Below are positions 16,943 through 33,301 of a DNA stretch of 64,000 nucleotides, piece after piece. This DNA comes from Halolamina pelagica (GTDB lineage Archaea; Halobacteriota; Halobacteria; Halobacteriales; Haloferacaceae). The number at the start of each line of letters is the position of its first letter. Position 1 is the first letter of the stretch. Both the position numbers and the translations under genes were made by a program. The stretch lies in assembly GCF_900115675.1 (NCBI RefSeq), contig NZ_FOXI01000002.1, forward strand, positions 186,001 to 250,000, read 5' to 3'. Below the pieces are notes generated by a model that was not told the origin of the DNA, searched no databases, and was given only the letters and a program-made list of their open reading frames with translations.

Positions 16943-18412
16943 ATGACGGCCGACATCACGATTCACGACGCGTTCGTTCTCACAGTCGACCATCGGAATC
17001 GACTCTATGAACGAGGAACAGTGCTCATCGAGGACGGCGAGATCACTGAGGTGCGGTCGTCTCGGGACGATGATGCAGACATCACGGCCACCCACGTCAT
17101 CGACGGTGATGGCACGCTCGTGATGCCGGGGCTGGTCAACGCCCACACCCATCTCGAACTGACGCCGCTGTTCGGCGCGTTCAGCGACCTCGACCTCGTG
17201 GAAATGATGGGCGGGATGACCGCAATTTTCGGACACATCGCCGAGGGGGAGTTCAATTACCTCACTGAGGCGGGGTACGAACTGGCGGCACTGAACTTCC
17301 TCACCGGCGGCGTCACCACGGTCAACTCGATGGACGTCCGCCCGAGAGCGGGCGCGGAGACGTTCGGCGAGGCGGGGCTCCGTGGGTTCTTCGGAACGGC
17401 GCTGTCTGATCTCTTCTGGGATGTGCCCGCCGACGAACAGTTCGCCCGCGCCCGTGCGTTCATTGAGGAGTATCACGACACGTACAACGGGCGGATTCGG
17501 GCGACGATAACCCCCCACGACGACTGGTCGTGTACACGCGAGCTGTGGGAACGGACTGCCGATCTCGCCGCCGAGTACCCCGACTTGCTCGTCCATACTC
17601 ATCTGCTCGAACTCGAGGAGAGCAACACGATGGCGCGGTCGAACGGCGCGGCGGACTCGCTCGATCTGCTCGACGACGTCGGCCTCCTTGACGATAGACT
17701 GGTGGCTGCGCACTTCCGGCTCGCCGATGATGAGGATATCCGGCGCACGGCCGAGGCGGATGCATCGGTCGCGCATTGCCCGTCGATCTTCTGTCACTGG
17801 AACCCGGATGGAGACGTGCAGTGGACGCCGGTTCCGGAACTCCGAGCGGCCGACGTCGACGTCGGTCTTGGCATCGACGACCACTACTGGCACGACTCCT
17901 ACAGTCTGTTCGGGGAGGCGCGACAGGCTCGGCTCGCAGCGAACCTCAAGCGTTCTACGGGCCAGTACGGCTCGATGGAACTGGTACGGATGCTCACCAT
18001 CGAGGGCGCGAAGGCGCTCGGCATCGGTGACGAGATCGGCAGCATCGAACCCGGCAAGCGCGCCGACGTCATCCTCCTCGATGTCGAGAAGCCGAAGTTC
18101 ACGCCACTGACCAACATTCCGGCGCAGGTCGCAAACAACGCGGCGCCCGCTGACGTGGAGACGGTCATCGTCGACGGCAACGTGCTGATGCGGGATAACG
18201 AAGTGAGGACGATGGACGCTACCGCGGTGCGCGCCCGCACCGAGACCGCGGTCGACCGTTTCGAGGACGAGACTGGTTGGGAACTCGGGATCGGTGAGAG
18301 CGAGCCGCCGAAGATGACGGACCTCGCTCGTGACCTCCCGAAGCGAGGCCCCAGCCAGTTGCTCGGACGCCTCGCGTTTCAGTCGGTCAAAGACGGATTC
18401 CCCGACCTCTGA
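16943..18412 (+). CDS. Amidohydrolase / chlorohydrolase-family metal-dependent hydrolase (copy 1)
   Basis: A 489-aa protein of the TIM-barrel amidohydrolase superfamily, close to the SAH/5-methylthioadenosine deaminase and chlorohydrolase group. Metal ligands appear in order: H68 and H70 in NAHTHLE, His in VHTHLLELEES, His in VAAHFRLADDE, and the catalytic Asp in GLGIDDHYW. The C-terminal small beta domain carries GSIEPGKRADVILLD and VETVIVDGNVLM. The last 70 residues (KMTDLARDLPKRGPSQLLGR) are an extension also seen, in different wording, in the related gene at 30903-32357. Substrate unknown: deaminases, hydantoinase-like and dehalogenating enzymes share this fold. It stands alone, with an AT-rich promoter just upstream. 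Confidence 0.85.
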   Translation: MTADITIHDAFVLTVDHRNRLYERGTVLIEDGEITEVRSSRDDDADITATHVIDGDGTLVMPGLVNAHTHLELTPLFGAFSDLDLVEMMGGMTAIFGHIAEGEFNYLTEAGYELAALNFLTGGVTTVNSMDVRPRAGAETFGEAGLRGFFGTALSDLFWDVPADEQFARARAFIEEYHDTYNGRIRATITPHDDWSCTRELWERTADLAAEYPDLLVHTHLLELEESNTMARSNGAADSLDLLDDVGLLDDRLVAAHFRLADDEDIRRTAEADASVAHCPSIFCHWNPDGDVQWTPVPELRAADVDVGLGIDDHYWHDSYSLFGEARQARLAANLKRSTGQYGSMELVRMLTIEGAKALGIGDEIGSIEPGKRADVILLDVEKPKFTPLTNIPAQVANNAAPADVETVIVDGNVLMRDNEVRTMDATAVRARTETAVDRFEDETGWELGIGESEPPKMTDLARDLPKRGPSQLLGRLAFQSVKDGFPDL

Positions 18413-19539: not shown

Positions 19540-22500
19540 CTATTCACCAGCGAACTCAACGCCCGTGATCTCGAAGCGTGCACCCCCGTCGGAGCCTTCA
19601 GTCACGTTGATCTCCCAGTCATGGGCTTCGACGATCTGCTCGACAATACTCAACCCGAAGCCAGTCCCCTCTTCGTTTGTCGAGTATCCCATATCGAAGA
19701 CCTCCTCGCGCTCACTCTCGGGGATCCCCGCGCCGTCGTCTTCAATGTAGAAACCGTCGTCCAATTCACCGACGATCACCGTCACGTCGTCGTCGCCGTG
19801 TTCGACCGCGTTGCGGATGAGGTTCTCAAACACTTGCTTCAGGCGGCTCTCGTCAGCGTAGACCGCTCGATTAACCTGTGTTGCAAGCGTCGCCTCCGTC
19901 GTCTCGACGTTCGTCCAACACCGTTCGGCTATCGTCGTGAGATCGACGGGTTCGAGGTCAGTGACGGTCTCGCCTTCACGTGATAGTGTCAGGAGATCGT
20001 CGATCAAGGCATCCATCCGATCCAGCGCGCGGGCTACGGGTTCTAAGTGCTCGCTGTCGTACTCCTCCCGGGCTAGTTCCAGCCGGCCCTCAGCCACGTT
20101 CAACGGGTTCCGGAGATCGTGGGAAACGATACTGGCGAACTGGTCAAGCCGGTCCTTCTGTGCCTCTAAGCGTCGCGTGCGGTCCCGGAGGGTTGCCTCT
20201 CGGTCGTTCCGATCGAGAACCGCAGTCACGATCGTCGCGAAGATCTCGATGAGGGCGACGTCGCCCTCGTCAAACGCGTGGGGGTTCGGCGAGGACGTAA
20301 TGAACAGTCCGTGGTCGCCAAGCGGCTGGATGATCCCGCTCCGACTGGGTGTTTTCACCCCGGGGATCCCGTCGGCATCGTGCGTGTCCTCGATCACGAC
20401 TGTCTCGCCCGCTTCGAAGATCTCCCAGTTGACGGCGTCAGCCGATCGTTCCGGGTCCGTCCGCTCGTAGGCCGGCGCTTCCCCGAGGTGTTCGCGGACC
20501 TCGTCGGTTACGGCGGTTGGTTCGAGCACGGTTCGCTCGTCGTCGGCGAGATGAACCCCACTGAGCGATAGCCCGAGGACGTCGTGTGCGGTAGTAACGG
20601 CGATGTCCGCTATCTCCTTCCGGGTGGACGCGCGAATCAGCTCTTCCGTCCGGTGTTGGAGCTCACGAAGCGTCTGTTCACGCCGTTTCCGTTCCGTGAC
20701 ATCCCGTGAGAACCCGATCACGTGATCAGTCCCGGTCGCGGTCTCGAACGGCGTTAATCGGAGTTCGATCACACCGAGGTCGCCCGGAACGTCGGGCGTC
20801 AACTCGATACTCACTTCGTCCGTCTCACCGCGAACGATCGCCTCTATCCCCTCCTCGATCGTCGCCACTTCCTCCCCGGTGAGCGTGCCGATCTCAGTGT
20901 ACATCGAGACGTGTTCGCCCACCCAATCCGCCTGTGGGACCCCGGAGATGTCGGCAATACGTTGGTTCACGAACTCGATGGTCCCGTCGGCGGTGAAGAT
21001 GGAGATCCCGTCCTCGGTGTTCTCGACGATCGCCTCGTAGCGTTCGAGATCGCGTTCGCGCGTTTTTCGTTCGGAGATGTTCCGACTGATCACGACGAAC
21101 CGGGTCTCCCCGTCCAGGGAGAGCCGTCTGAGGTTAACTTCGACGGGGAACGTCGAGCCATCACGACGCTGATAGACGCCCTCGAACTTCCGTTGATTCC
21201 CGGTCTCCATCTCCCTCCAGAGCGAGCGTGCCTCGTCGGGATCGATTGCCTGGTCGAGATTCCACACCTTCGTCCCGGTGAGTTCTTCCCTGTCGTACCC
21301 CGTCTCCTCGCACAAGCGCGAATTTGGGTCGATGATGTTTCCCTTCGCGTCGTGAACGTTGATCATATCGGGGGAATGTTCGAAGAGGGCCTGGAGTCGG
21401 GCCGTGGTGTGTTCGAGGCGATTCTCGCGTTTTTCGCGCTCGGTGATGTCACGGCCGGAGATCAGCAGGGAGACTACCTCGCCAGTGTCGTTTCTCACAG
21501 GCCGGAAGACGCCGCTGATGACGAGATGATCACCGACTGCTTCGGAGAGGTCAATCTCGAACTCGACGTACTCGCCAGCAGCCGCCTGATCGACCCACTC
21601 GCGGACCTCTCGTTGGAGCCTTTCGTCGCCGGTAAACCACGGGGTCTCCCAGAACAGCCGGTCCGTCACAGCTTCCAACTCGGCGTCAATATATCCCACT
21701 GCGGTCTCGTTGATGTCGATAATCCCCCCGTCAGTATCGATCAAGCCGACGAGGATATTCGGGTCGTTAAACATCGCTTCGAACCGGCGTTCAGCGCGTC
21801 GGAGCTCTCGTTCGCGCTCTTTCCGTTCCGTGATGTCACGGACAACACCGACGGCTCCTTCAACCGACCCATCGACAGTGAGCGGGGTCATCCGGAACTC
21901 TACCTGGGCGTATCCGTGATCGGGAAACCGGGCGTCGATTTCCCCTGATAGTTGGTCTCGCTGGCCGTCGAGAAGCGCTTGATAGGGGTCCCCGTCTTCG
22001 ATTTGCTCTCGAATGGCGGCGATGAGACCGCTTTCTTCGCCCTCGAGTGCTTCACGAGACGTGTCGTACCAGTCGGCCAGATACTCGTTGACGGTCCTGA
22101 ATCGGCCATCCTCGTCGTAGATACAGGCGGCCTCTTGCATCGAGTTGACCATGTGTTTGTACCGGCGGAGCTCGTTGTTCCGCTCAGCCAGCCTCTGCTG
22201 TGATCGGTACGATTCGACGACGTTGGTGATGCGGTTGGCTAGGACCGTGTATTGGTCAGTTCCACTCTCCTTCTCGAGGTAATCAGTAACGCCAGCGGAG
22301 ATCGCCTCGGAGGCGACCTCCTCTGACCCCTTGCCGGTGTAGAGGATAAACGGGAGATCCGGATACTCGGCCCGAACGACTTCTAAAAATTCGATGCCGT
22401 TCTGGCCAGGCATATCGTAGTCAGAAACGATACAATCCACGTCGTACTCAGCCAGCATCTCCCGCCCGACCTCGGCGTTCGTCGCGGTTCGAACTGTGAT

Positions 22501-22599
22501 CCGACCGTCCTCCCGTTCCAGAAAGGTTGCGGCCATGTCGGTCAGGTTCGGATCGTCATCGACATGGAGAACGCAGATCGAGTCACTCATCCCGCTCAT
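19540..22599 (-). CDS. Large sensor kinase: REC-PASx4-GAF-HisKA-HATPase
   Basis: A 1019-aa soluble multi-sensor kinase. Receiver 8-125 with D60 in SDYDMPGQNG; four PAS units about 150-275, 285-405, 410-530 and 535-655, separated by ITERKERERE-like linkers; GAF about 665-810; HisKA with H827 in IVSHDLRNPLN; HATPase with NLIRNAVEHG, DDGAGIP and GTGFGLSIV. Start may be 22599 (MSGMSDSI) or the Met three codons later. No cognate output regulator is adjacent. It shares its kinase core closely with the second core of the dual kinase at 27303-30179, pointing to duplication within the island. It is divergent from the LOV kinase across a 270-base gap. Confidence 0.92.
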   Translation of the reverse strand: MSGMSDSICVLHVDDDPNLTDMAATFLEREDGRITVRTATNAEVGREMLAEYDVDCIVSDYDMPGQNGIEFLEVVRAEYPDLPFILYTGKGSEEVASEAISAGVTDYLEKESGTDQYTVLANRITNVVESYRSQQRLAERNNELRRYKHMVNSMQEAACIYDEDGRFRTVNEYLADWYDTSREALEGEESGLIAAIREQIEDGDPYQALLDGQRDQLSGEIDARFPDHGYAQVEFRMTPLTVDGSVEGAVGVVRDITERKERERELRRAERRFEAMFNDPNILVGLIDTDGGIIDINETAVGYIDAELEAVTDRLFWETPWFTGDERLQREVREWVDQAAAGEYVEFEIDLSEAVGDHLVISGVFRPVRNDTGEVVSLLISGRDITEREKRENRLEHTTARLQALFEHSPDMINVHDAKGNIIDPNSRLCEETGYDREELTGTKVWNLDQAIDPDEARSLWREMETGNQRKFEGVYQRRDGSTFPVEVNLRRLSLDGETRFVVISRNISERKTRERDLERYEAIVENTEDGISIFTADGTIEFVNQRIADISGVPQADWVGEHVSMYTEIGTLTGEEVATIEEGIEAIVRGETDEVSIELTPDVPGDLGVIELRLTPFETATGTDHVIGFSRDVTERKRREQTLRELQHRTEELIRASTRKEIADIAVTTAHDVLGLSLSGVHLADDERTVLEPTAVTDEVREHLGEAPAYERTDPERSADAVNWEIFEAGETVVIEDTHDADGIPGVKTPSRSGIIQPLGDHGLFITSSPNPHAFDEGDVALIEIFATIVTAVLDRNDREATLRDRTRRLEAQKDRLDQFASIVSHDLRNPLNVAEGRLELAREEYDSEHLEPVARALDRMDALIDDLLTLSREGETVTDLEPVDLTTIAERCWTNVETTEATLATQVNRAVYADESRLKQVFENLIRNAVEHGDDDVTVIVGELDDGFYIEDDGAGIPESEREEVFDMGYSTNEEGTGFGLSIVEQIVEAHDWEINVTEGSDGGARFEITGVEFAGE

Positions 22600-22774: not shown

Positions 22775-22868
22775 CCGCTGAATCCCCCCTCGTGAGGACG
22801 TTTCCGTGGCACGCCCGGAGTGAACAGCCACTTTGATTGAGAGAGGGGGCTACCTACTACCTAGAACC

Positions 22869-25382
22869 GTGGAGCAAATCAGCGTTCTGGCGGTCACGGC
22901 TGACAGGGAATTCACCGCCGCCTGTGAGCGCGTGCTTCCGGAGCACGGCGATATCCGGGTCGTCTCCGCAACGTCGGTCGGGGAGGCGATCGACGTGTTG
23001 GACAGAGAGACGCAGGTCGATTGCGTTATCAGCGATCACGACCTCCCGGACACGGACGGCGTCGCGTTCCTTGAAGCCGTGCGTGCACAAGCTCCGACAC
23101 TTCCGTTCATCCTCTTCACGAGCGAGGGGGGCGAAGGGGTCGCCAGTCGCGCCATCTCCGCCGGGGTCACCGACTATCTCATCAAGGAACGCCACGAGAA
23201 CCAGTGGGGTCGCCTTGCGACGCTCATCACCGACGCAGTCAGATACTACCGCGACCAGCGTGACATCGTCGACACGGAAACACGAGCGAAAACACTCCTC
23301 AACGCCGCACACGACATCGTTGGGATCGTTCGCGACGGTGAGATAGCGTATCTCAACGATACTGGTGTTACCGAAATTTACGACGGCGACCGGAGCCGGA
23401 TAGCGAACGACTCCGTAGCGGACGTTCTCCTCTCGGACGACGGCACTCCGATCAGAGATCTCCTTGACGCGGTACAGTCAGGCTCTCGGACGCTCGACCA
23501 CCGTAACGGGAACCTCATCGCTGCGAACGGGATACGTACCCCGGTTGAGATTACCGCGGCCAAGGTGACGTGGACCGAAATCCCGGCGGTCATTCTCGTT
23601 CTCCGGGATGTTAGCGACCGTCGAGAACGAAAGCGGAAACTGCGCCTCACGAATCGGGCCATCGACGAAGCGCCCGTCGGCATCACGATAGCTGACGCCA
23701 CCGAACCGGACAATCCGCTCATCTACGCGAACGACAAGTTCTCTGAATTGACTGGCTATCGGCAGGAAGAGACACTCGAACGGAACTGTCGATTCCTCCA
23801 AGGTGAGAACACCGACCCTCGCCCAGTCGCCGAGATGCGTGAGGCCATCGACGCCGAAGAACCCGTAACCGTCGAACTGCGGAACTACCGCAAGGACGGC
23901 ACGGAGTTCTGGAACCGCGTGACGATCGCTCCGGTTACCGACCATATGGGTGAGGTCACGCACTACGTCGGGTTCCAAGAGGACGTGACCGAACGCGTCG
24001 AGTACCAGCAGATGCTCCGTCGGTTCCAGCGAGCGGTCGAATCGGCCGGCCACGCGATCTACATGACTGATCAGGACGGGACCATCACGTACGTAAATCC
24101 GGCCTTCGAACGGGTGACCGGCTACGACAGCGACGAGGTCGTCGGCCAGACGCCGCACGTTCTCCACTCCGGCGAGATGTCCGACGAGTACTACGACCGG
24201 TTGTGGGCGACCATCTCCAGCGGAAACGTTTGGGAGGAAGAGATCCAGGACCGGCGGAAATCAGGTGACGTGTACTATGCCCACCAGACGATCGCCCCAT
24301 TGACTGACGACGACGGAGAAATCGAAGCGTACGTCGCCATCCAGCAGGACATCACTGACCGCAAGGAGCGGGAGTTCCGGCTCCGACAGTACGAATCCGC
24401 GGTTGAAGGTGCCAAGGAGTTAATCGCCGCGATAGACGAAGAAAAGCACTACCTCTTTGCCAACGAGGCATACCGCGACTTCCACGGCCTCGATACCGAG
24501 TCGCTGACCGAGCTGATGCTCGACGACGGCATCGGTTCGGATACCTACGAAACGGTCGAACCATACCTGGAGCGAGCGTTCGACGGCGAGACAGTCCAGT
24601 ACCGGATGACGCGATCACGGCCGGAACGAGCGGACCGCACGTTCGACATCCGATATTACCCGCTCGAAGACGACACTGGCCACGTCGAGGGGATCGTCGC
24701 GACGATGCGTGATCTGACCGAACAGATCGAGCGGGAACAACACATTGCGTCCCTCGATCGGATGCTACGGCATACCCTTCACAACGAACTGAACGTGATC
24801 CTGGGTCACGCGGAGATGCTTCAAGCTCAGGGGTCGGATGAGGTGGTCGAGGTAGGCACGACGATCGAAAGAGTGGCCGGTCGCATCCTCGAACAGACGG
24901 ATAAGCAGCACGAGATCGTTGAACTCCTCTCAAACCAGTCGGATCCAACACACCTCAACCTCGCCGACGTTGTGGATACCGCTGTCGAACGTGTGACGAC
25001 GGAGCATCCGGACGCAGAGATCACGGTCGAAGTGCCGGCGGACGTACAGCTGCTGTCGATTCCGGAGCTACAACGGGCCATCGAAGAACTCGTCGAGAAC
25101 GCGATCGCGCATACCGGCGACGGGCCAGCGAAAGTGGGGGTGACGGCAACGAAACACGGGACGGTGGTTGAACTCCACGTTACAGATAACGGGCCGGGGA
25201 TCCCACCGGAAGAACGAAGCGTGATTTCGGGAGATGCAGACATCGACTCGTTGACACACAGTAGCGGGATGGGGCTGTGGCTCGTCAAACGGATCGTGTC
25301 CCGAACGGATGGCGATATCCGATTCGACGACGCTGAACCCACCGGGAGTGTCGTTACGCTTCAACTACCATTCAATACGTAG
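22869..25382 (+). CDS. Blue-light-type sensor kinase: REC-PAS-LOV-PAS-PAS-HisKA-HATPase
   Basis: About 837 aa from GTG 22869 (MEQISVLAVTADREF); a TTG at 22833 is in frame. Receiver 4-120 with D56 in ISDHDLPDTDG; PAS 130-250; a LOV-type PAS about 255-378; two more PAS to about 620; HisKA with H635 in MLRHTLHNELN; HATPase with ELVENAIAHT, DNGPGIP and SSGMGLWLV. The LOV domain keeps the full flavin site: C307 in NCRFLQGENTDP forms the photoadduct in this family, and the Asn/Asn/Gln contacts are in LRNYRKDGTEFWN and YVGFQED. This strongly resembles bacterial YtvA-type LOV domains. The kinase should therefore respond to blue light through FMN or another flavin. No output regulator is adjacent. Confidence 0.9.
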   Translation: MEQISVLAVTADREFTAACERVLPEHGDIRVVSATSVGEAIDVLDRETQVDCVISDHDLPDTDGVAFLEAVRAQAPTLPFILFTSEGGEGVASRAISAGVTDYLIKERHENQWGRLATLITDAVRYYRDQRDIVDTETRAKTLLNAAHDIVGIVRDGEIAYLNDTGVTEIYDGDRSRIANDSVADVLLSDDGTPIRDLLDAVQSGSRTLDHRNGNLIAANGIRTPVEITAAKVTWTEIPAVILVLRDVSDRRERKRKLRLTNRAIDEAPVGITIADATEPDNPLIYANDKFSELTGYRQEETLERNCRFLQGENTDPRPVAEMREAIDAEEPVTVELRNYRKDGTEFWNRVTIAPVTDHMGEVTHYVGFQEDVTERVEYQQMLRRFQRAVESAGHAIYMTDQDGTITYVNPAFERVTGYDSDEVVGQTPHVLHSGEMSDEYYDRLWATISSGNVWEEEIQDRRKSGDVYYAHQTIAPLTDDDGEIEAYVAIQQDITDRKEREFRLRQYESAVEGAKELIAAIDEEKHYLFANEAYRDFHGLDTESLTELMLDDGIGSDTYETVEPYLERAFDGETVQYRMTRSRPERADRTFDIRYYPLEDDTGHVEGIVATMRDLTEQIEREQHIASLDRMLRHTLHNELNVILGHAEMLQAQGSDEVVEVGTTIERVAGRILEQTDKQHEIVELLSNQSDPTHLNLADVVDTAVERVTTEHPDAEITVEVPADVQLLSIPELQRAIEELVENAIAHTGDGPAKVGVTATKHGTVVELHVTDNGPGIPPEERSVISGDADIDSLTHSSGMGLWLVKRIVSRTDGDIRFDDAEPTGSVVTLQLPFNT

Positions 25383-27302: not shown

Positions 27303-30179
27303 TCAGGGCTGTTCGTACTCGACACCGCTGATCACGAAGCGAGCACCACCGGCAGAGCCCTCTTCCACACGTATGTCCCATCCGTGAACTTCGACAGCCC
27401 GCTCGACGATACTCAGTCCGAGTCCGGTCCCATCGGAATCCGACGAGTGGCCTTCCTCGAATACGGTCGACCGGTCCGACACTGGAATCCCGGGACCGGT
27501 GTCCTCGACGTAGAAACCGTCGTCCCGGTTCCCGACGGTCACGGAGACGCCATCGCCGCCGTGTTCATACGCGTTGCCAAACAGGTTCTCGAAGACCTGT
27601 TTGAGACGGGTCTCGTCGGCGCGTATCGTCCCTTCCAGGCGGTTGGTGAACGTCGCGTCGGCCGTGTCGACGCTGCCCCAACAGTTGTTCACGATCGTCG
27701 CGAGGTCGATCAGTTCGCGCTCTTCGACGGCCGTTTCGGATTGTGACAGGGAGAGCACGTCCTCGATGAGCGTTTCAATACGACCGAGGGCAGATTCGAC
27801 GTGGTCGAGGTGGTCCCACTCTCCCGATTCTCGAGCGAGAGTGAGTCGGCCCTGTGCCACGTTTAGCGGGTTCCTGAGGTCGTGGCTGACCATGCTGGCG
27901 AACCGCTCGCGTTCCCTGCGATTGGTGACGTTCTGGGTCATCGCTATCCCTGCGTAGACCGCACCGTCGGTGTCCTCGACGGGAACGGTCTGTACCTGGT
28001 AGGTTCGATTCATGAAGGGGAGTTCCTTCCGCTGGGACTCCCCGTCGAGTGCAGCCTGGCACATCTCGATGAAGGGCGACGGGATCTCGCCGTCGAGCGC
28101 TTCCCGGACGTGTAGCCCTTCGAGACCCGCAGGATCGAGGCCGGCGTCTTCGAGTCCCTTGCCAGCGGCGACCTGAAACCGCATGTCGGAATCGAACAGG
28201 AAGACGCCACCGTTGGGGAAATTCTCGGCAACGATGCGATAGCGTTCCTGGGTCTGTTCGAGTTCACGTTTGCGTGCTTTCTCCTCGCTCACGTCTGTTG
28301 TGACCGCGATCAGTCCGGTAACCGAATCGGCCTCACCTCGCAACGGTGCCGCGGAGATTCGCAGATCGACGGTCGTGTCGTCGCCCGTCTGGCGCTGGAC
28401 CTCGAGGTTACGGATAGTCTCCCCTGCCAGGACGCGTTCGAGGCGTTCTTCGAAGTCGGAAGCCTGGGAAGGGTTAAACAGGTCGAGGGAGTGGATTCGC
28501 TCACCGAGAACGGCCTCCGCCTCGAACTCGAACACCTCCGCGGCCGCGTTATTCCACAGTTGGATGGCTCCAGTGGCATCGAGTGCCAGTATCGGCTCGG
28601 GGGAAAGGTTGACCATGGTTTCGAGCCGGTTCGCCGTCGCCTGGAGGACTCGTTCGCGTTCCTTGCGCTCGCTTATGTCGCGGCTGACGATGAGATGCTG
28701 GCCGGGGACGATGTCGGTTTTGGCCGTGTACTCGATGGGGCTGACCCCGCCGTCGGGACTGACGATGTCCAGTTCGTCGCGTTTCATCTTGCTGGACTGG
28801 ATCTCCCCCCATTCTGCCTCGAAGTCGAACTCACTGGGGAGGAACTCCTGCATCGACCGTCCGAGCAACGCCTGTCGGTCCTCGCCATAGATGCGGGCGG
28901 CTTCCGCGTTGACAGCCAGAATCCGCGCCGAATCGTCAGTGATCGTCATGCCGTCACCTGCCTCCTCGAAGCTCGCTTTGTACTGGTCGCGCGCGCGACT
29001 GAGTTCGGTCAGTTGGTCGTCATTGCTGCCCATCGGCCCCCGTGGTACGGTGATCGTCAACGTCGTTCCGTCGTCAGTGATTGCCGGAGTGATCGTCCCA
29101 TCGTTACTACTGACGATCCAGTGCGCCAGCCACAGACCCAGTCCAGAACCGTGTTTCAGCGGGGTCTCCTCACCGGTCTCGAGCACGTCGGCTTCGTCGC
29201 GGGACAGCCCCGGCCCGTCGTCTGTTATCCGGATTTCGACCGCCTTCGGAACGGTCTCTACGGTGACGGTGACGGTCGGGGAATCACTACCGTGCTTGGC
29301 GGCGTTTTCGATGAGTTCCTCGACCGCCCGCCCGAAACTCGTCAGTATCGACGCCTGCGCCTCTTGTTCGGCCGCTATCGTAACGTTCGCGTTCGGGTAC
29401 GACTGTTCGACGGAGTTCACGCAATCACGCACGAGTGAAACGATGTCGGCGGGCTCCCGCTCCTGGTCAACGGCAATAACAGAGCTCAACTGGCGGGCTT
29501 TCTCACTCAATTCGAGGATCGAATCGATCTTCTGGAGGGCCATTTGCCTCATGGTATCGTTGTCCCGTTTGCCGCCCACGAGCTGGGTGTACCCACGGAT
29601 GACGGTCATCCCGTTGCGGAGGTTGTGTCGAAGCACCCTGTTGAGCACGACGGCGAGGTTGGTCTGTTGGTGGAGTTGTGCCTCGTGTCGCTCCCGTTCG
29701 AGTTCGCGTTCGAGCATCTGGGCAATGAGTTCGGCAAACATCGTCTCATCCTCACTGAACTGCTCTTTCCGGGGGTTCTCAGCGACGAAGCAGACCGTTC
29801 CGTACGGCTTCCCGTCGAGGATGAGCTTCGTCCCGTGATAGCAGTGCAGTCCGTGCTGCTGGAACGCTGGATCGTCAGCCCAGCCCTGGTTCGGGGCCTC
29901 ACTGACTGCGATCGGGGCGTCCGCCTCGATCGTTCGCCGACAGTACGTTGTGCCGAGGTCTAGTTCGAGCCCCGGCGGGAAGTCGCCACCCGGTCCGTCG
30001 GTACTGACTATCGCCTCCCAGTGCCCGGTCTGCTGGTCGATCTGCGTGAGATGTCCGTTGTCCGCATCGAGATACCGTCTGCCGAGTTCGAGAGCCCCTC
30101 GTGCTTTCTGTTCGAAGGTGTTCTCGCTCCGTAGCAACTCGTAGAGGTCGCGTCTCGCTTGCTGTCCGGACTCGCTCAT
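27303..30179 (-). CDS. Tandem dual histidine kinase: GAF-HisKA-HATPase-PASx3-HisKA-HATPase
   Basis: About 958 aa from the Met at 30179 (MSESGQQARRDLYEL). The N-terminal half is a full kinase: GAF about 10-160, HisKA with H185 in VLRHNLRNGMTV, HATPase with ELIENAAKHG, DDGPGLS and GSGLGLWLA. It continues in the same frame into three PAS units (about 395-510, 515-630, 635-755) and a second full kinase: H766 in MVSHDLRNPLN, then NLFGNAYEHG, DTGPGIP and GTGLGLSIV. Two complete kinase cores in one chain is unusual. No internal stop or frameshift separates them. The second core resembles that of the kinase at 19540-22599. Upstream in-frame codons run antisense through a transposase remnant and are excluded. 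Confidence 0.88.
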   Translation of the reverse strand: MSESGQQARRDLYELLRSENTFEQKARGALELGRRYLDADNGHLTQIDQQTGHWEAIVSTDGPGGDFPPGLELDLGTTYCRRTIEADAPIAVSEAPNQGWADDPAFQQHGLHCYHGTKLILDGKPYGTVCFVAENPRKEQFSEDETMFAELIAQMLERELERERHEAQLHQQTNLAVVLNRVLRHNLRNGMTVIRGYTQLVGGKRDNDTMRQMALQKIDSILELSEKARQLSSVIAVDQEREPADIVSLVRDCVNSVEQSYPNANVTIAAEQEAQASILTSFGRAVEELIENAAKHGSDSPTVTVTVETVPKAVEIRITDDGPGLSRDEADVLETGEETPLKHGSGLGLWLAHWIVSSNDGTITPAITDDGTTLTITVPRGPMGSNDDQLTELSRARDQYKASFEEAGDGMTITDDSARILAVNAEAARIYGEDRQALLGRSMQEFLPSEFDFEAEWGEIQSSKMKRDELDIVSPDGGVSPIEYTAKTDIVPGQHLIVSRDISERKERERVLQATANRLETMVNLSPEPILALDATGAIQLWNNAAAEVFEFEAEAVLGERIHSLDLFNPSQASDFEERLERVLAGETIRNLEVQRQTGDDTTVDLRISAAPLRGEADSVTGLIAVTTDVSEEKARKRELEQTQERYRIVAENFPNGGVFLFDSDMRFQVAAGKGLEDAGLDPAGLEGLHVREALDGEIPSPFIEMCQAALDGESQRKELPFMNRTYQVQTVPVEDTDGAVYAGIAMTQNVTNRRERERFASMVSHDLRNPLNVAQGRLTLARESGEWDHLDHVESALGRIETLIEDVLSLSQSETAVEERELIDLATIVNNCWGSVDTADATFTNRLEGTIRADETRLKQVFENLFGNAYEHGGDGVSVTVGNRDDGFYVEDTGPGIPVSDRSTVFEEGHSSDSDGTGLGLSIVERAVEVHGWDIRVEEGSAGGARFVISGVEYEQP

Positions 30180-30434
30180 CGCAGTGGCCGGGGTGGGAAA
30201 CCTTTCGCGAATCCCGTTCTCGAGCGCCGACAACTCGGAGGAGTTCCCGCCATCACACCGCTTGCGGGGACCCTGTCGCTGTGGGTGATCTCCATCGTGT
30301 ACCCTACTCGCTCGTCCGACGGATGCCGATTCGGCTTGGTCTACCAAGATGAATAACATGCCACCGAACCGTTCGGTGATCCCAGGTGCCAAGCGCGGCG
30401 CTGTTGGCCTGCCGGAAGCGCCAGCGGCTCGGGT

Positions 30435-30833
30435 CACGTCGCGGTTGACGAGACCGTGATCCGGCTCGACGACGAACGGTTCTGGCTGTATGCGGCGGTC
30501 GATTCCGACACGAACCGCTTGCTCCACGTCAAGCTCTCTCCGACCAGCAATCAAACGATTACCGAGATGTTCGTCGCTGAACTCCGCGACAAACGTCTCG
30601 TCGATGATGCACTCTTTCTCGTCGATTCTGCACCGTGGCTGCAAGCAGCTCTCCACCGGCACGACCTCGATTGCAGATACGAGAAACACGGTAATCGGAA
30701 CCGCGTCGAACGTGTCTCTCGAGAGCTAAAACGCCGAACCGACCGGTTCTCAAACTGTTTCAGCCATGCCGACGCAAACACCGTCGAAAATTGGCTTCAA
30801 TCGTTCGCCTTCGCATGGAACCAGCTTGTCTGA
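30435..30833 (+). pseudogene. IS6-family (ISH-type) transposase, N-terminally truncated
   Basis: The frame starts inside the DDE catalytic domain at VAVDETVIRLDDERFWLYAA and runs to a stop at 30833. Visible marks of this family are LFLVDSAPWLQAAL (second Asp region), HGNRNRVERV (catalytic Glu) and NCFSHADANTVENWLQSFA. The N-terminal half, about 90 residues including the HTH, is missing, so the copy cannot transpose. I could not find matching terminal inverted repeats. It lies just upstream of the dual kinase gene in the opposite direction and may have brought in or disturbed its promoter. Confidence 0.8.
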
Positions 30834-30902: not shown

Positions 30903-32357
30903 TCACCAATTGTGTTGGTTGACAACGCCACGGCCGTATTGTCGCATCGCACGTAACAGTGGTCGTGCAGACACGCGTCGGAGTATCGATTTCTTCGGAG
31001 GTGTACTGCCGGCGAGTGACGTTTCCCAGCCAGTACGGGTCTGCAGGCGTTCCCGTTCTCGCGTGGCGGCTGTGCGAACGCGCTCGACGTCCATCGATCG
31101 GACCGCCCGTTCCTCCATCAGGACCTCACCGTCAACGACGACCGTCTCGACATCCCCCGCAGTGACCGAGTTCGTCAGCACCGACGGGAGATTGCTGTAT
31201 GGCTGGTGGCGGGGGGTATCGACATCGATTATGGCCAAGTCGGCGCGTTTCCCCGGTTCGAGGCTCCCGATCTGGTCGTCGAGACCAAGCGCACGTGCGG
31301 CGTCGATGGTAAGCATTTCGAGGAGGTCGTACGAGGACCATTGCTGGGCTCCGTATTGGAAGTTCGACAACATTCGGGCGTGTTTGGCTTCCTGGATGAG
31401 GTCCCAGGAATCGAACCAGAACGGATCGTCCAGGCCGATGACGACGTTCGCGTCGAACTCTCGAAGCGCCGGGAGCGGGAACCAGGTTCGATTCCCGGCC
31501 TGAAAGTAACTGTACACCGTCGGACAGTGAAGCACGTGCGCGCCGGCGTCGGCGATCCGTCGCGCGTCGTCCCGGTTTGCGTGCAGTAGGTGAGTGAGCA
31601 GCGTTCGCTCATCGAGGAGGCCGTATCGGTCGAGCAGGTCGAGCGGGTCGTCGGCACCGCTTCCCGCCGCCATGGTGTCGGCCTCAGCCGAGTCGTACAG
31701 GTGAGTGTGGAGACGCAAGTCGGGGTAGTCGGCTCGCAGTTCAGCCACACCCTCCCAGAGTTCCCGCGAACAGCCGGCTTCACCGCCCGGTGCGATACTT
31801 GCGGTGACACGCCCCTCGTAGCTGTCGTGGTAGGTATCGATGAACCGACGGGCGTCCGCGAGTTGTTCGGACGCGGAGGCGGGGTTGACGAAGTCTGCAA
31901 GCTCCGGGCCGATCACACCGCGTACCCCGGATTCACCGACGGCTTCCGCCCCGAGCTCCGGCGTGAAGTCCATCGCGTTGACCGTCGTGACGCCGTGTGT
32001 GAGTTGCCGCAGGCAGGCGAGTTCCCACGCGGCTTCGAAGAACGATTCGCCCAGGGTCGGTTCGGCGGTGTGGTACAACGCGAAGGCCTCTTTGAGCAGT
32101 TCACTGCCGTCGAGCTCGCTGAACAACCCCTGGACGAGCGTGAAATCGGTGTGGCGGTGGGCGTCAATGAGGCCAGGAATCACGATCTTGCCGCTGGCGT
32201 CGATCACATGCTCTGCAGTTGAGTCCCGATCCGCGGGGTCAGTCGGTTCGACTGACGAAATAGTTCCGTCCGTCACCCGAATAGAGCCGTTCTTCAGTAT
32301 CTGATTCTCTCGATTCACCGTGACGACGGTCGCATCGTGAATCAGGAGATCAGTCAT
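30903..32357 (-). CDS. Amidohydrolase / chlorohydrolase-family metal-dependent hydrolase (copy 2)
   Basis: A 484-aa paralogue of the protein at 16943-18412 with the same domain order. Metal ligands: H67 and H69 in DAHRHTD, His in LHTHLYDSAEAD, His in LLTHLLHANRDD, catalytic Asp in GLDDPFWF. C-terminal beta domain: GSLEPGKRADLAIID and VETVVVDGEVLM. Start chosen at 32357 (MTDLLIHDATVVTV), where homology to the first copy begins. The residue after the first metal His differs (R here, T there) and so does the substrate-side loop (VHTHLLELEES versus LHTHLYDSAEAD), so the two may prefer different substrates. It is transcribed towards the transposase remnant. Confidence 0.85.
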   Translation of the reverse strand: MTDLLIHDATVVTVNRENQILKNGSIRVTDGTISSVEPTDPADRDSTAEHVIDASGKIVIPGLIDAHRHTDFTLVQGLFSELDGSELLKEAFALYHTAEPTLGESFFEAAWELACLRQLTHGVTTVNAMDFTPELGAEAVGESGVRGVIGPELADFVNPASASEQLADARRFIDTYHDSYEGRVTASIAPGGEAGCSRELWEGVAELRADYPDLRLHTHLYDSAEADTMAAGSGADDPLDLLDRYGLLDERTLLTHLLHANRDDARRIADAGAHVLHCPTVYSYFQAGNRTWFPLPALREFDANVVIGLDDPFWFDSWDLIQEAKHARMLSNFQYGAQQWSSYDLLEMLTIDAARALGLDDQIGSLEPGKRADLAIIDVDTPRHQPYSNLPSVLTNSVTAGDVETVVVDGEVLMEERAVRSMDVERVRTAATRERERLQTRTGWETSLAGSTPPKKSILRRVSARPLLRAMRQYGRGVVNQHNW

Positions 32358-32558
32358 TAGCCGATGTGTTCGTCGGCTCACCTCAATAACATATTGGCAC
32401 GTCTCTGCTGAATGTGCGTCCTATACTCACCAACCTGGGCTAACGATCAACGAGATCTGGCGGGGTCACTGTCGATCAGTTCGCAGGTTCGTTCTGACGG
32501 TTGATTCATTTGATCCAGGGTGAAATCAAACCCTGGCGAATAGTTCTTTGACACCCTC

Positions 32559-33215
32559 TCATCGAGTAAGAGCGTCGAATACCCGCTCCTCGATCTTTCG
32601 CAGGTGCTCCCCCGCGGTGGTGGGCGCAATCCCGATGCGCTCAGCTACGTCGCGTTGCGTTGCTTCCCGAGGTGCATTATAGAAACCAACGTCAACAGCG
32701 GCTTCAAGCACCTCCTGCTGGCGTGTCGTCAATACCCGACGGAGGGAATCTGTATCTGGATCGTAGCTCCCGGTTTCAACAATTTCGAACGAGAGCGAAA
32801 GTTCCTCATCGACACGGTGAAAGACGTCTTGAAACGCCGAGTCGCTCCCCACAAAGGTGACTCGAACCGACCCATCAGCATTGATTGGAACTGGAGTCTC
32901 GATGACAACATGTGACCCACGCTCGAGTTCGAGCAAGCGCCGTGTCTCGGTTGAGGGTTCGAACTGGTTCACTGCCATCCACCGGTCGACTCCAGAGACG
33001 AGATACTCGTCGACGAGCGAGGACTCGGACATGATTGCTTCGTACCGGTCGGAGTCACCACTCCCCTCAGCGAAGACCAACACTGTCTCGTCCGCGAGTA
33101 GTTCGATGTGGTGAATTGCTTCCCGGGTAATCGCCGGTTCCTCCCGTAACTTTGCCCCGACAGGATGGAATCCTCCGTCGTCACCAGGAGTCATCTCGAC
33201 ACTGAGATACCGCAT
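32559..33215 (-). CDS. Bat-type transcription regulator with C-terminal HTH_10
   Basis: A 218-aa regulator. The N-terminal 150 residues form the sensor part typical of haloarchaeal bacterio-opsin-activator-like proteins. The C-terminus carries the HTH_10 domain: LTTRQQEVLEAAVDVGFYN, then ATQRDVAERIGIAPTTAGEH and LRKIEERVF. Start chosen at 33215 (MRYLSVEMTPG) with a TATA-like TTTTTATT about 28 bases upstream. It is divergent from the FAD monooxygenase gene across 86 bases, which suggests it controls that gene. Confidence 0.87.
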   Translation of the reverse strand: MRYLSVEMTPGDDGGFHPVGAKLREEPAITREAIHHIELLADETVLVFAEGSGDSDRYEAIMSESSLVDEYLVSGVDRWMAVNQFEPSTETRRLLELERGSHVVIETPVPINADGSVRVTFVGSDSAFQDVFHRVDEELSLSFEIVETGSYDPDTDSLRRVLTTRQQEVLEAAVDVGFYNAPREATQRDVAERIGIAPTTAGEHLRKIEERVFDALTR

Positions 33216-33301
33216 CGACAGGAGAGTATCTGCAATTCCAATAAAAAAGACCGTGTTTGACCGGCAGGCACGTCTCCACCATCGGGGCCGTATTATCACC
33301 T

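Follow-up and report, generated by a model that had tools for sequence, protein, structure and literature searches.

The gene studied here lies in a 64-kb stretch of Halolamina pelagica DNA (the whole stretch analysed, hereafter the window) and encodes a receiver-PAS-LOV-PAS-PAS-histidine kinase. It is probable that this is a soluble haloarchaeal kinase in which two candidate flavin sensors stand side by side, that it is mobile, and that adduct photochemistry is optional to it. Judged from its residues, the window protein is likely to be a canonical adduct-forming photoreceptor and the species is likely to sense blue light, and among six orthologues the place of the adduct-forming cysteine, residue 307, is taken by five different residues. 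We put forward tentatively, as a possibility, that one orthologous kinase was toggled between an adduct photoreceptor and a Cys-less redox or photoreduction sensor while it moved between haloarchaea, with a second flavin PAS alongside.

The open reading frame proposed by the first-pass annotation, 22869-25382 on the forward strand, is borne out, with a GTG start and 837 residues. The GTG start is kept in the window gene and three other orthologues (G000, G132, G157 and G162, of which G000 is the window species), and an in-frame TTG at 22833 is an alternative start which would add 12 residues. Relatives were gathered by whole-protein searches and by a query of receiver and first PAS domain holding no LOV residue; 26 family members, a lower bound for the size of the family, were read from the best 30 loci of the latter query and from chosen regions, weaker matches being dropped. 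The features of the gene are the following.

22869..25382, forward strand: whole gene, receiver-PAS-LOV-PAS-PAS-histidine kinase, 837 aa plus stop, GTG start
22887..23201, forward strand: atypical receiver domain, residues 7-111 (Pfam Response_reg, E 1.7e-15, a whole-protein E)
22896..22901, forward strand: T10-A11 at the place of the acidic pair; acid at either position in 0/26 family members
23034..23036, forward strand: Asp56, equivalent of the phospho-acceptor; Asp in 25/26 family members, Glu in one
23289..23609, forward strand: first PAS domain, residues about 141-247, family-specific, with predicted PAS-like strands and helices in the model
23673..23993, forward strand: LOV domain, residues 269-375 (Pfam PAS_9, PDB sequence matches, NCBIfam, structure match)
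23787..23789, forward strand: Cys307 codon (TGT), place of the adduct-forming residue (from the sequence)
24021..24353, forward strand: third PAS domain, residues 385-495, similar to the redox-sensing FAD PAS domains of MmoS and NifL (3ewk, 2gj3, NCBIfam NifL)
24204..24206, forward strand: Trp446 in helix F-alpha (model helix 439-450); LW in 17/17 family members with this PAS
24411..24725, forward strand: fourth PAS domain, residues 515-619 (Pfam PAS_4)
24771..24773, forward strand: His635, predicted phosphorylated histidine, nearly invariant in alignment A1; RH in 17/17 aligned members
25065..25376, forward strand: HATPase_c kinase domain, residues 733-836 (Pfam, E 4.3e-19)

Pfam by itself gives the receiver (7-111), PAS_9 (269-375), PAS (385-495), PAS_4 (515-619) and HATPase_c (733-836). 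An AlphaFold2 model built from a 26-row alignment has a mean pLDDT of 85.1 and a pTM of 0.40, so the arrangement of the domains is not predicted by it. No transmembrane helix is suggested by this model, from which the kinase would be cytosolic and soluble. The list of its structure neighbours is dominated by single domains, and absence from that list carries no meaning.

The LOV domain comes second among the four PAS domains and is joined to an N-terminal receiver and a kinase, as the first-pass annotation had it, and its motifs stand exactly where they had been placed, namely C307 in NCRFLQG (N306), DP from 316, RNYRKDGTEFWN from 338 (N339, N349) and YVGFQED from 366 (Q370). The residues which we take, partly from that annotation, to be the flavin and phosphate contacts of LOV domains are all present: N306, R308, Q311, R324, N339, N349 and Q370. 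The matches of the domain to PDB sequences are far beyond chance, and the nearest solved LOV sequences are 6hmj (E 8.8e-33), 9vf8/9vf7, 8qi8, 1n9l (E 1.2e-31) and YtvA 2pr5 (E 1.3e-31). In the model the domain has a pLDDT of about 91-96 and fits 9vf7_D with Z 21.4 and rmsd 1.0 over 138 residues (45% identity) and YtvA 2pr5 with Z 20.2 and rmsd 1.8 over 125 residues (42% identity). The LOV domain had been called very close to YtvA, which comes down to this 42% identity. The whole protein reaches 224.4 bits with the NCBIfam YtvA model NF052652, below the 250-bit whole-protein cut-off, so its LOV is like that of YtvA but it falls outside that family; the Meiothermus LOV 9vf8, with 54% identity over 105 residues, is closer than YtvA. 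The output domain of YtvA is STAS, unlike the kinase output of the window protein. LOV domains as such are common in this order: 332 of 392 genomes match at E 1e-25 or below.

Six full-length orthologues, the window protein included, share the same layout and are 52-93% identical to the window protein. At position 307 they have Cys (G000, TGT), Cys (the congener G132, TGT), Thr (G157, ACT), Ile (G162, ATT), Phe (G447, TTT) and Pro (G253, CCG). This is the sole column with five states among the 116 LOV columns of the six orthologues, and so the place where the LOV domain varies most; the presence of Cys307 may therefore be incidental. The other contacts are far steadier: N306 reads NNNNDN and R308 RRRRQR, and Q311, R324, N339, N349 and Q370 are invariant. 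Cys-less G157, G162 and G253 keep all seven of these pocket residues and G447 keeps five.

A LOV domain is present in 14 of the 26 family members read. Cys stands at the place of 307 in nine of them (G000, G132, G026, G067, G109a, G277, G195, G388 and G362) and is replaced in five, by Thr (G157), Ile (G162), Phe (G447), Pro (G253) and Ser (G101a). LOV domains outside the family have Cys in 106/107 at 110 bits or more, the remaining one having His, and in 111/114 at a cut-off of 90 bits, figures which may favour Cys slightly as the loci were picked by similarity to a Cys-bearing query; the peptide patterns used in gathering them do not cover the Cys. A text-pattern count on a later non-family set (n = 107) found Cys in 105 and His in one, with one left unread. 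Fisher tests beside these counts gave p 3.5e-4 and 4.6e-5, which are indicative only, as related sequences are treated as independent and the second table was entered with 111 Cys against the 106 counted at the stricter cut-off. A LOV domain with His for Cys (NHRFLQ) is found in the halophilic archaeon SHRA6 (L102:7824-9839). In genome G101 two members of the family lie some 7 kb from each other (L141:2258-4432 and L009:685-1959), one LOV-free and the other with the Ser and a frame cut by TAA.

The Cys-less members might be explained in the most ordinary way, that is, the kinase is a plain blue-light LOV histidine kinase, and the orthologues without the cysteine have lost light sensing and retain the LOV domain as a structural spacer. 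The completeness of the cysteine and contacts in the window protein would fit this, as would the broken frame of G101a and the fact that 12 of 26 family members do without a LOV domain at all. However, the LOV domain of the Cys-less pair G157/G162 is as constrained as the kinase: the Nei-Gojobori dN/dS of the pair is 0.133 in the LOV, 0.142 in the kinase and 0.091 in the PAS behind the LOV, and values of 0.214, 0.268 and 0.288 were obtained for PAS4, receiver and PAS1 respectively. The LOV domain of this pair is thus under purifying selection and not decaying. Besides, polar flavin contacts are needless for a spacer and are retained, and four of the five Cys-less members stand in long open frames (840-991 aa), so we regard this explanation as rather unlikely. 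Precedent exists for another outcome, as Cys-less LOV domains, a natural haloarchaeal BAT LOV included, respond to flavin reduction according to the part of Yee et al. available to us (PMC4682037). Given this precedent and the purifying selection on the G157/G162 LOV, the simplest reading by analogy is that the Cys-less LOV domains of the family still sense, by flavin reduction.

It may also be asked whether the kinase is primarily a redox sensor in the window species too, so that the LOV and the NifL-like PAS behind it both read redox and Cys307 either speeds photoreduction or is neutral. The same available text describes a BAT-LOV which, when given Cys for its Pro, formed no adduct and photoreduced faster (PMC4682037), and the five states at 307, unique among the LOV columns, point the same way. 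The window LOV, however, unlike BAT, fully matches adduct-forming LOV domains, and Cys is found in 9/14 family LOVs and in both congeners; a primarily redox role in the window species is therefore held to be improbable. In the receiver+PAS1 tree G447, the pair G000/G132 and the pair G157/G162 form one clade (100/98), on which the LOV tree agrees (SH-aLRT 96); 12 of 23 inner branches of the former tree are open. The Cys label over the family needs at least four changes on the tree, and the starred branches alone force two. Thr of G157 and Ile of G162, a sister pair, may go back to one common loss of Cys. Codon parsimony at 307 favours an ancestral Cys no more than an ancestral Phe, TTT to TGT being one step, and the genus of the window species may even have regained its cysteine.

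The PAS domain that follows the LOV directly (385-495) has as its nearest PDB sequences MmoS 3ewk (E 8.6e-35) and NifL 2gj3 (E 1.6e-17), then Aer; the NCBIfam NifL model aligns from residue 386, and the best whole-model Foldseek match of the kinase is NifL 9qq6 (E 2.4e-30). Trp446 lies in helix F-alpha, and the F-alpha Trp is named as the main FAD determinant in the accessible part of PMC10468136. The window protein has Asp at the Asn column of NifL/MmoS and Pro at the His column of MmoS, the choice of columns being inferred, so FAD binding by this domain is a lead only; the Asn column has Asn in several other family members. From its sequence relatives the domain probably reports redox state. 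The 26 family members comprise nine with both LOV and NifL-like PAS, five with LOV only, eight with that PAS only and four with neither, and G109 carries one copy of each single kind. A LOV followed directly by a NifL/MmoS-like PAS is found in 9/14 LOV proteins of the family against 5/107 others. The cysteine is missing in 4/9 members with both domains and in 1/5 with LOV only, numbers which are too small for a test.

The receiver is a second puzzle, separate from the question of the cysteine. Its model has a normal receiver fold (3crn, Z 20.9, rmsd 1.5, 129 residues), and D56, T84 and K106 are kept, Thr being found in 25/26 and Lys in 21/26 family members. The acidic pair of receivers binds Mg, and at its positions all 26 members have T/S/A and A/S/N. 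Other receivers in the fetched loci have an acid in 48 of the 58 with letters at these columns; the comparison covered 112 receivers, that is, 26 of the family and 86 others, of which 28 are gapped at the pair and were set aside. Because the acidic pair is lost in 26/26 members, a set gathered by similarity to the window protein so that a common acid-less receiver is partly built in, an Mg-dependent phospho-switch is unlikely, and the receiver more likely serves for docking or for control within the molecule. Seven other loci with haloarchaeal receiver-LOV kinases (L014, L030, L033, L043, L044, L046 and L118) are also without the acidic pair, with YVGTD or YVGID in its place, which argues that the pair was lost more than once.

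At the other end of the protein, the N, G1 and G2 boxes of HATPase_c are present (ENAIAH 743, DNGPGIP 773 and GMGLWL 800), and the model of residues 610-837 fits ZraS 9jfj with Z 20.3 and rmsd 3.0 over 218 residues. Of the full kinase described earlier, these boxes and H635 are present; the phosphoacceptor helix has no Pfam HisKA match, but in the model the H635 region is a helix pair.

The kinase gene sits in a low-GC stretch of the window (GC 0.593 over 14-36 kb, 0.696 in the rest). In two relatives it is a lone low-GC gene within high-GC flanks, with 0.579 against 0.697 and 0.652 in G132 and 0.547 against 0.689 and 0.666 in G447, and thus the kinase is a single gene that moved sideways. The open reading frames of the 64-kb window were set against 18 loci that hold orthologues or paralogues, and no neighbour common to the kinase loci, nor a partner regulator, was found within the 20 kb compared, congener G132 included; around the orthologues, nothing but the kinase has a counterpart that is not a paralogue, and the remaining matches over the loci are kinase paralogues and some scattered hits of housekeeping type. 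The accessory light/redox signalling island suggested earlier is therefore rejected as a conserved unit, and is an accessory region.

As to the members of that island, the DICT-domain neighbour is present with a weak match (27.1 bits, cut-off 23.8), and Pfam finds two further multi-sensor kinases nearby, where one had been named earlier. The supposed Bat-type regulator (32559-33299) is an HVO_0513_N-HTH_10 protein with no BAT, PAS or GAF match, so its membership in Bat is rejected. Adjacent to the window kinase, and divergently transcribed, is a receiver-(PAS)n-GAF-HisKA-kinase (19540-22599, reverse strand) with the normal receiver motif VDDD, a possible partner; its matches in the loci of relatives represent paralogy (27-32% identity). 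The kinase-rich low-GC stretch is flanked by two related Amidohydro_1 genes in opposite orientation (16943-18412, forward strand; 30903-32381, reverse strand). A frame of 1128 codons (27303-30689, reverse strand) has two HATPase_c stretches: a GAF-kinase comes first, and PAS domains with HisKA and another kinase come after it. It appears to be a fusion of two kinases, preceded by a long N-terminal part that is doubtful. This part is overlapped by a short frame with no Pfam match (30456-30833, forward strand), which resembles a transposase fragment.

No microbial rhodopsin (PF01036) was found in the genome of the window species (99.31% complete) by a search that was positive in 13/17 relatives, so a bop/Bat link is rejected. 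Two LOV kinases were the only candidate photoreceptors met in this genome by the LOV and rhodopsin searches. The second one, on contig C11 (L002:667-2481 / L117:7087-8901), is a receiver-PAS-LOV-HK protein of 604 aa. Its LOV shares 64% identity with that of the window kinase and keeps the Cys, and its receiver motif has acids.

Haloarchaeal LOV kinases with receiver, PAS and GAF modules are already published from Lake Diamante, and ALovD-1, a LOV domain from a haloarchaeal three-PAS histidine kinase, was shown to photocycle at salt concentrations of up to 3 M (PMC12202551, as far as accessible). According to the same portion of that paper, the LOV is the second PAS in these receiver/PAS/GAF-histidine kinases as it is here, group-A features such as FWN then Arg are shared, and some natural members have Pro or Phe for Cys, as in the window family; neither a turnover of the Cys between orthologues of a single kinase nor a NifL-like PAS behind the LOV appears in it. 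BAT-LOV* resembles the Cys-less orthologues in being haloarchaeal with pocket residues kept and Cys replaced, and sets a precedent for chemical or photo-reduction, but BAT is a receiver-LOV-GAF-HTH transcription regulator whereas the window protein is a kinase with Cys (PMC4682037, available part). Brucella abortus LOV-HK 6ph4 and the engineered YF1 4gcz (Foldseek E 9.0e-27 and 1.3e-22 with the window model) likewise join a LOV via PAS or coiled coil to a kinase, but have no N-terminal receiver and two PAS domains instead of four. NifL (9qq6, 2gj3) and MmoS (3ewk) resemble the window protein in their FAD PAS, but are without LOV, and their secondary FAD residues (Asn, His) are not kept in it. 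The gross layout is that of archaeal REC-(PAS)n-HisKA-HATPase proteins described in PMC5847659, in whose main text the word LOV is absent and whose accessible part also reports a divergent receiver in Bat. In a search of the openly readable literature, with the supplement of Yee et al. (about 70 Cys-less entries) left aside, no report was found of Cys turnover among orthologous LOV kinases, nor of an archaeal LOV followed by a NifL-like PAS. The window kinase is, then, ordinary in kind and unusual in detail, that is, in its Cys turnover, its acid-less receiver and its probable second flavin PAS. All three details were absent from the first-pass annotation.

Anatomy, residue states, fold models, conservation, purifying selection and the mobility of the gene are results of the analysis, whereas the cofactors, the photochemistry, the flow of the signal and the partner in what follows are inferred. 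In the proposed mechanism, blue light would form the Cys307-flavin adduct in the LOV domain of the window species and of congener G132, and the change would travel down the helices, by way of the two PAS domains that follow, and reach the kinase, which would phosphorylate a putative response regulator. PAS 385-495 would read redox, so that light and redox may be read together, and the N-terminal receiver would serve as a docking or regulatory module rather than an Mg-dependent phospho-switch. In orthologues with the Cys replaced and the flavin pocket kept, the LOV would signal when its flavin is reduced, either chemically or by light.

Engineered mutants and one BAT domain have raised the question whether natural LOV proteins depend on their cysteine to signal. 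The six orthologues, which have one layout in common and at least 52% identity with the window protein, vary at 307 while the flavin pocket and the kinase are under selection, and their comparison tests adduct chemistry, photoreduction and plain redox against each other as the driver of a natural kinase, and also whether an adjoining redox-type PAS makes the cysteine dispensable. With the cysteine exchanged and the rest kept in close relatives, members of the family may be light sensors in certain species and sensors of redox state in others. If the toggling is true, it would provide, from nature, an evolutionary series in which LOV photoreceptor and redox flavoprotein interconvert.
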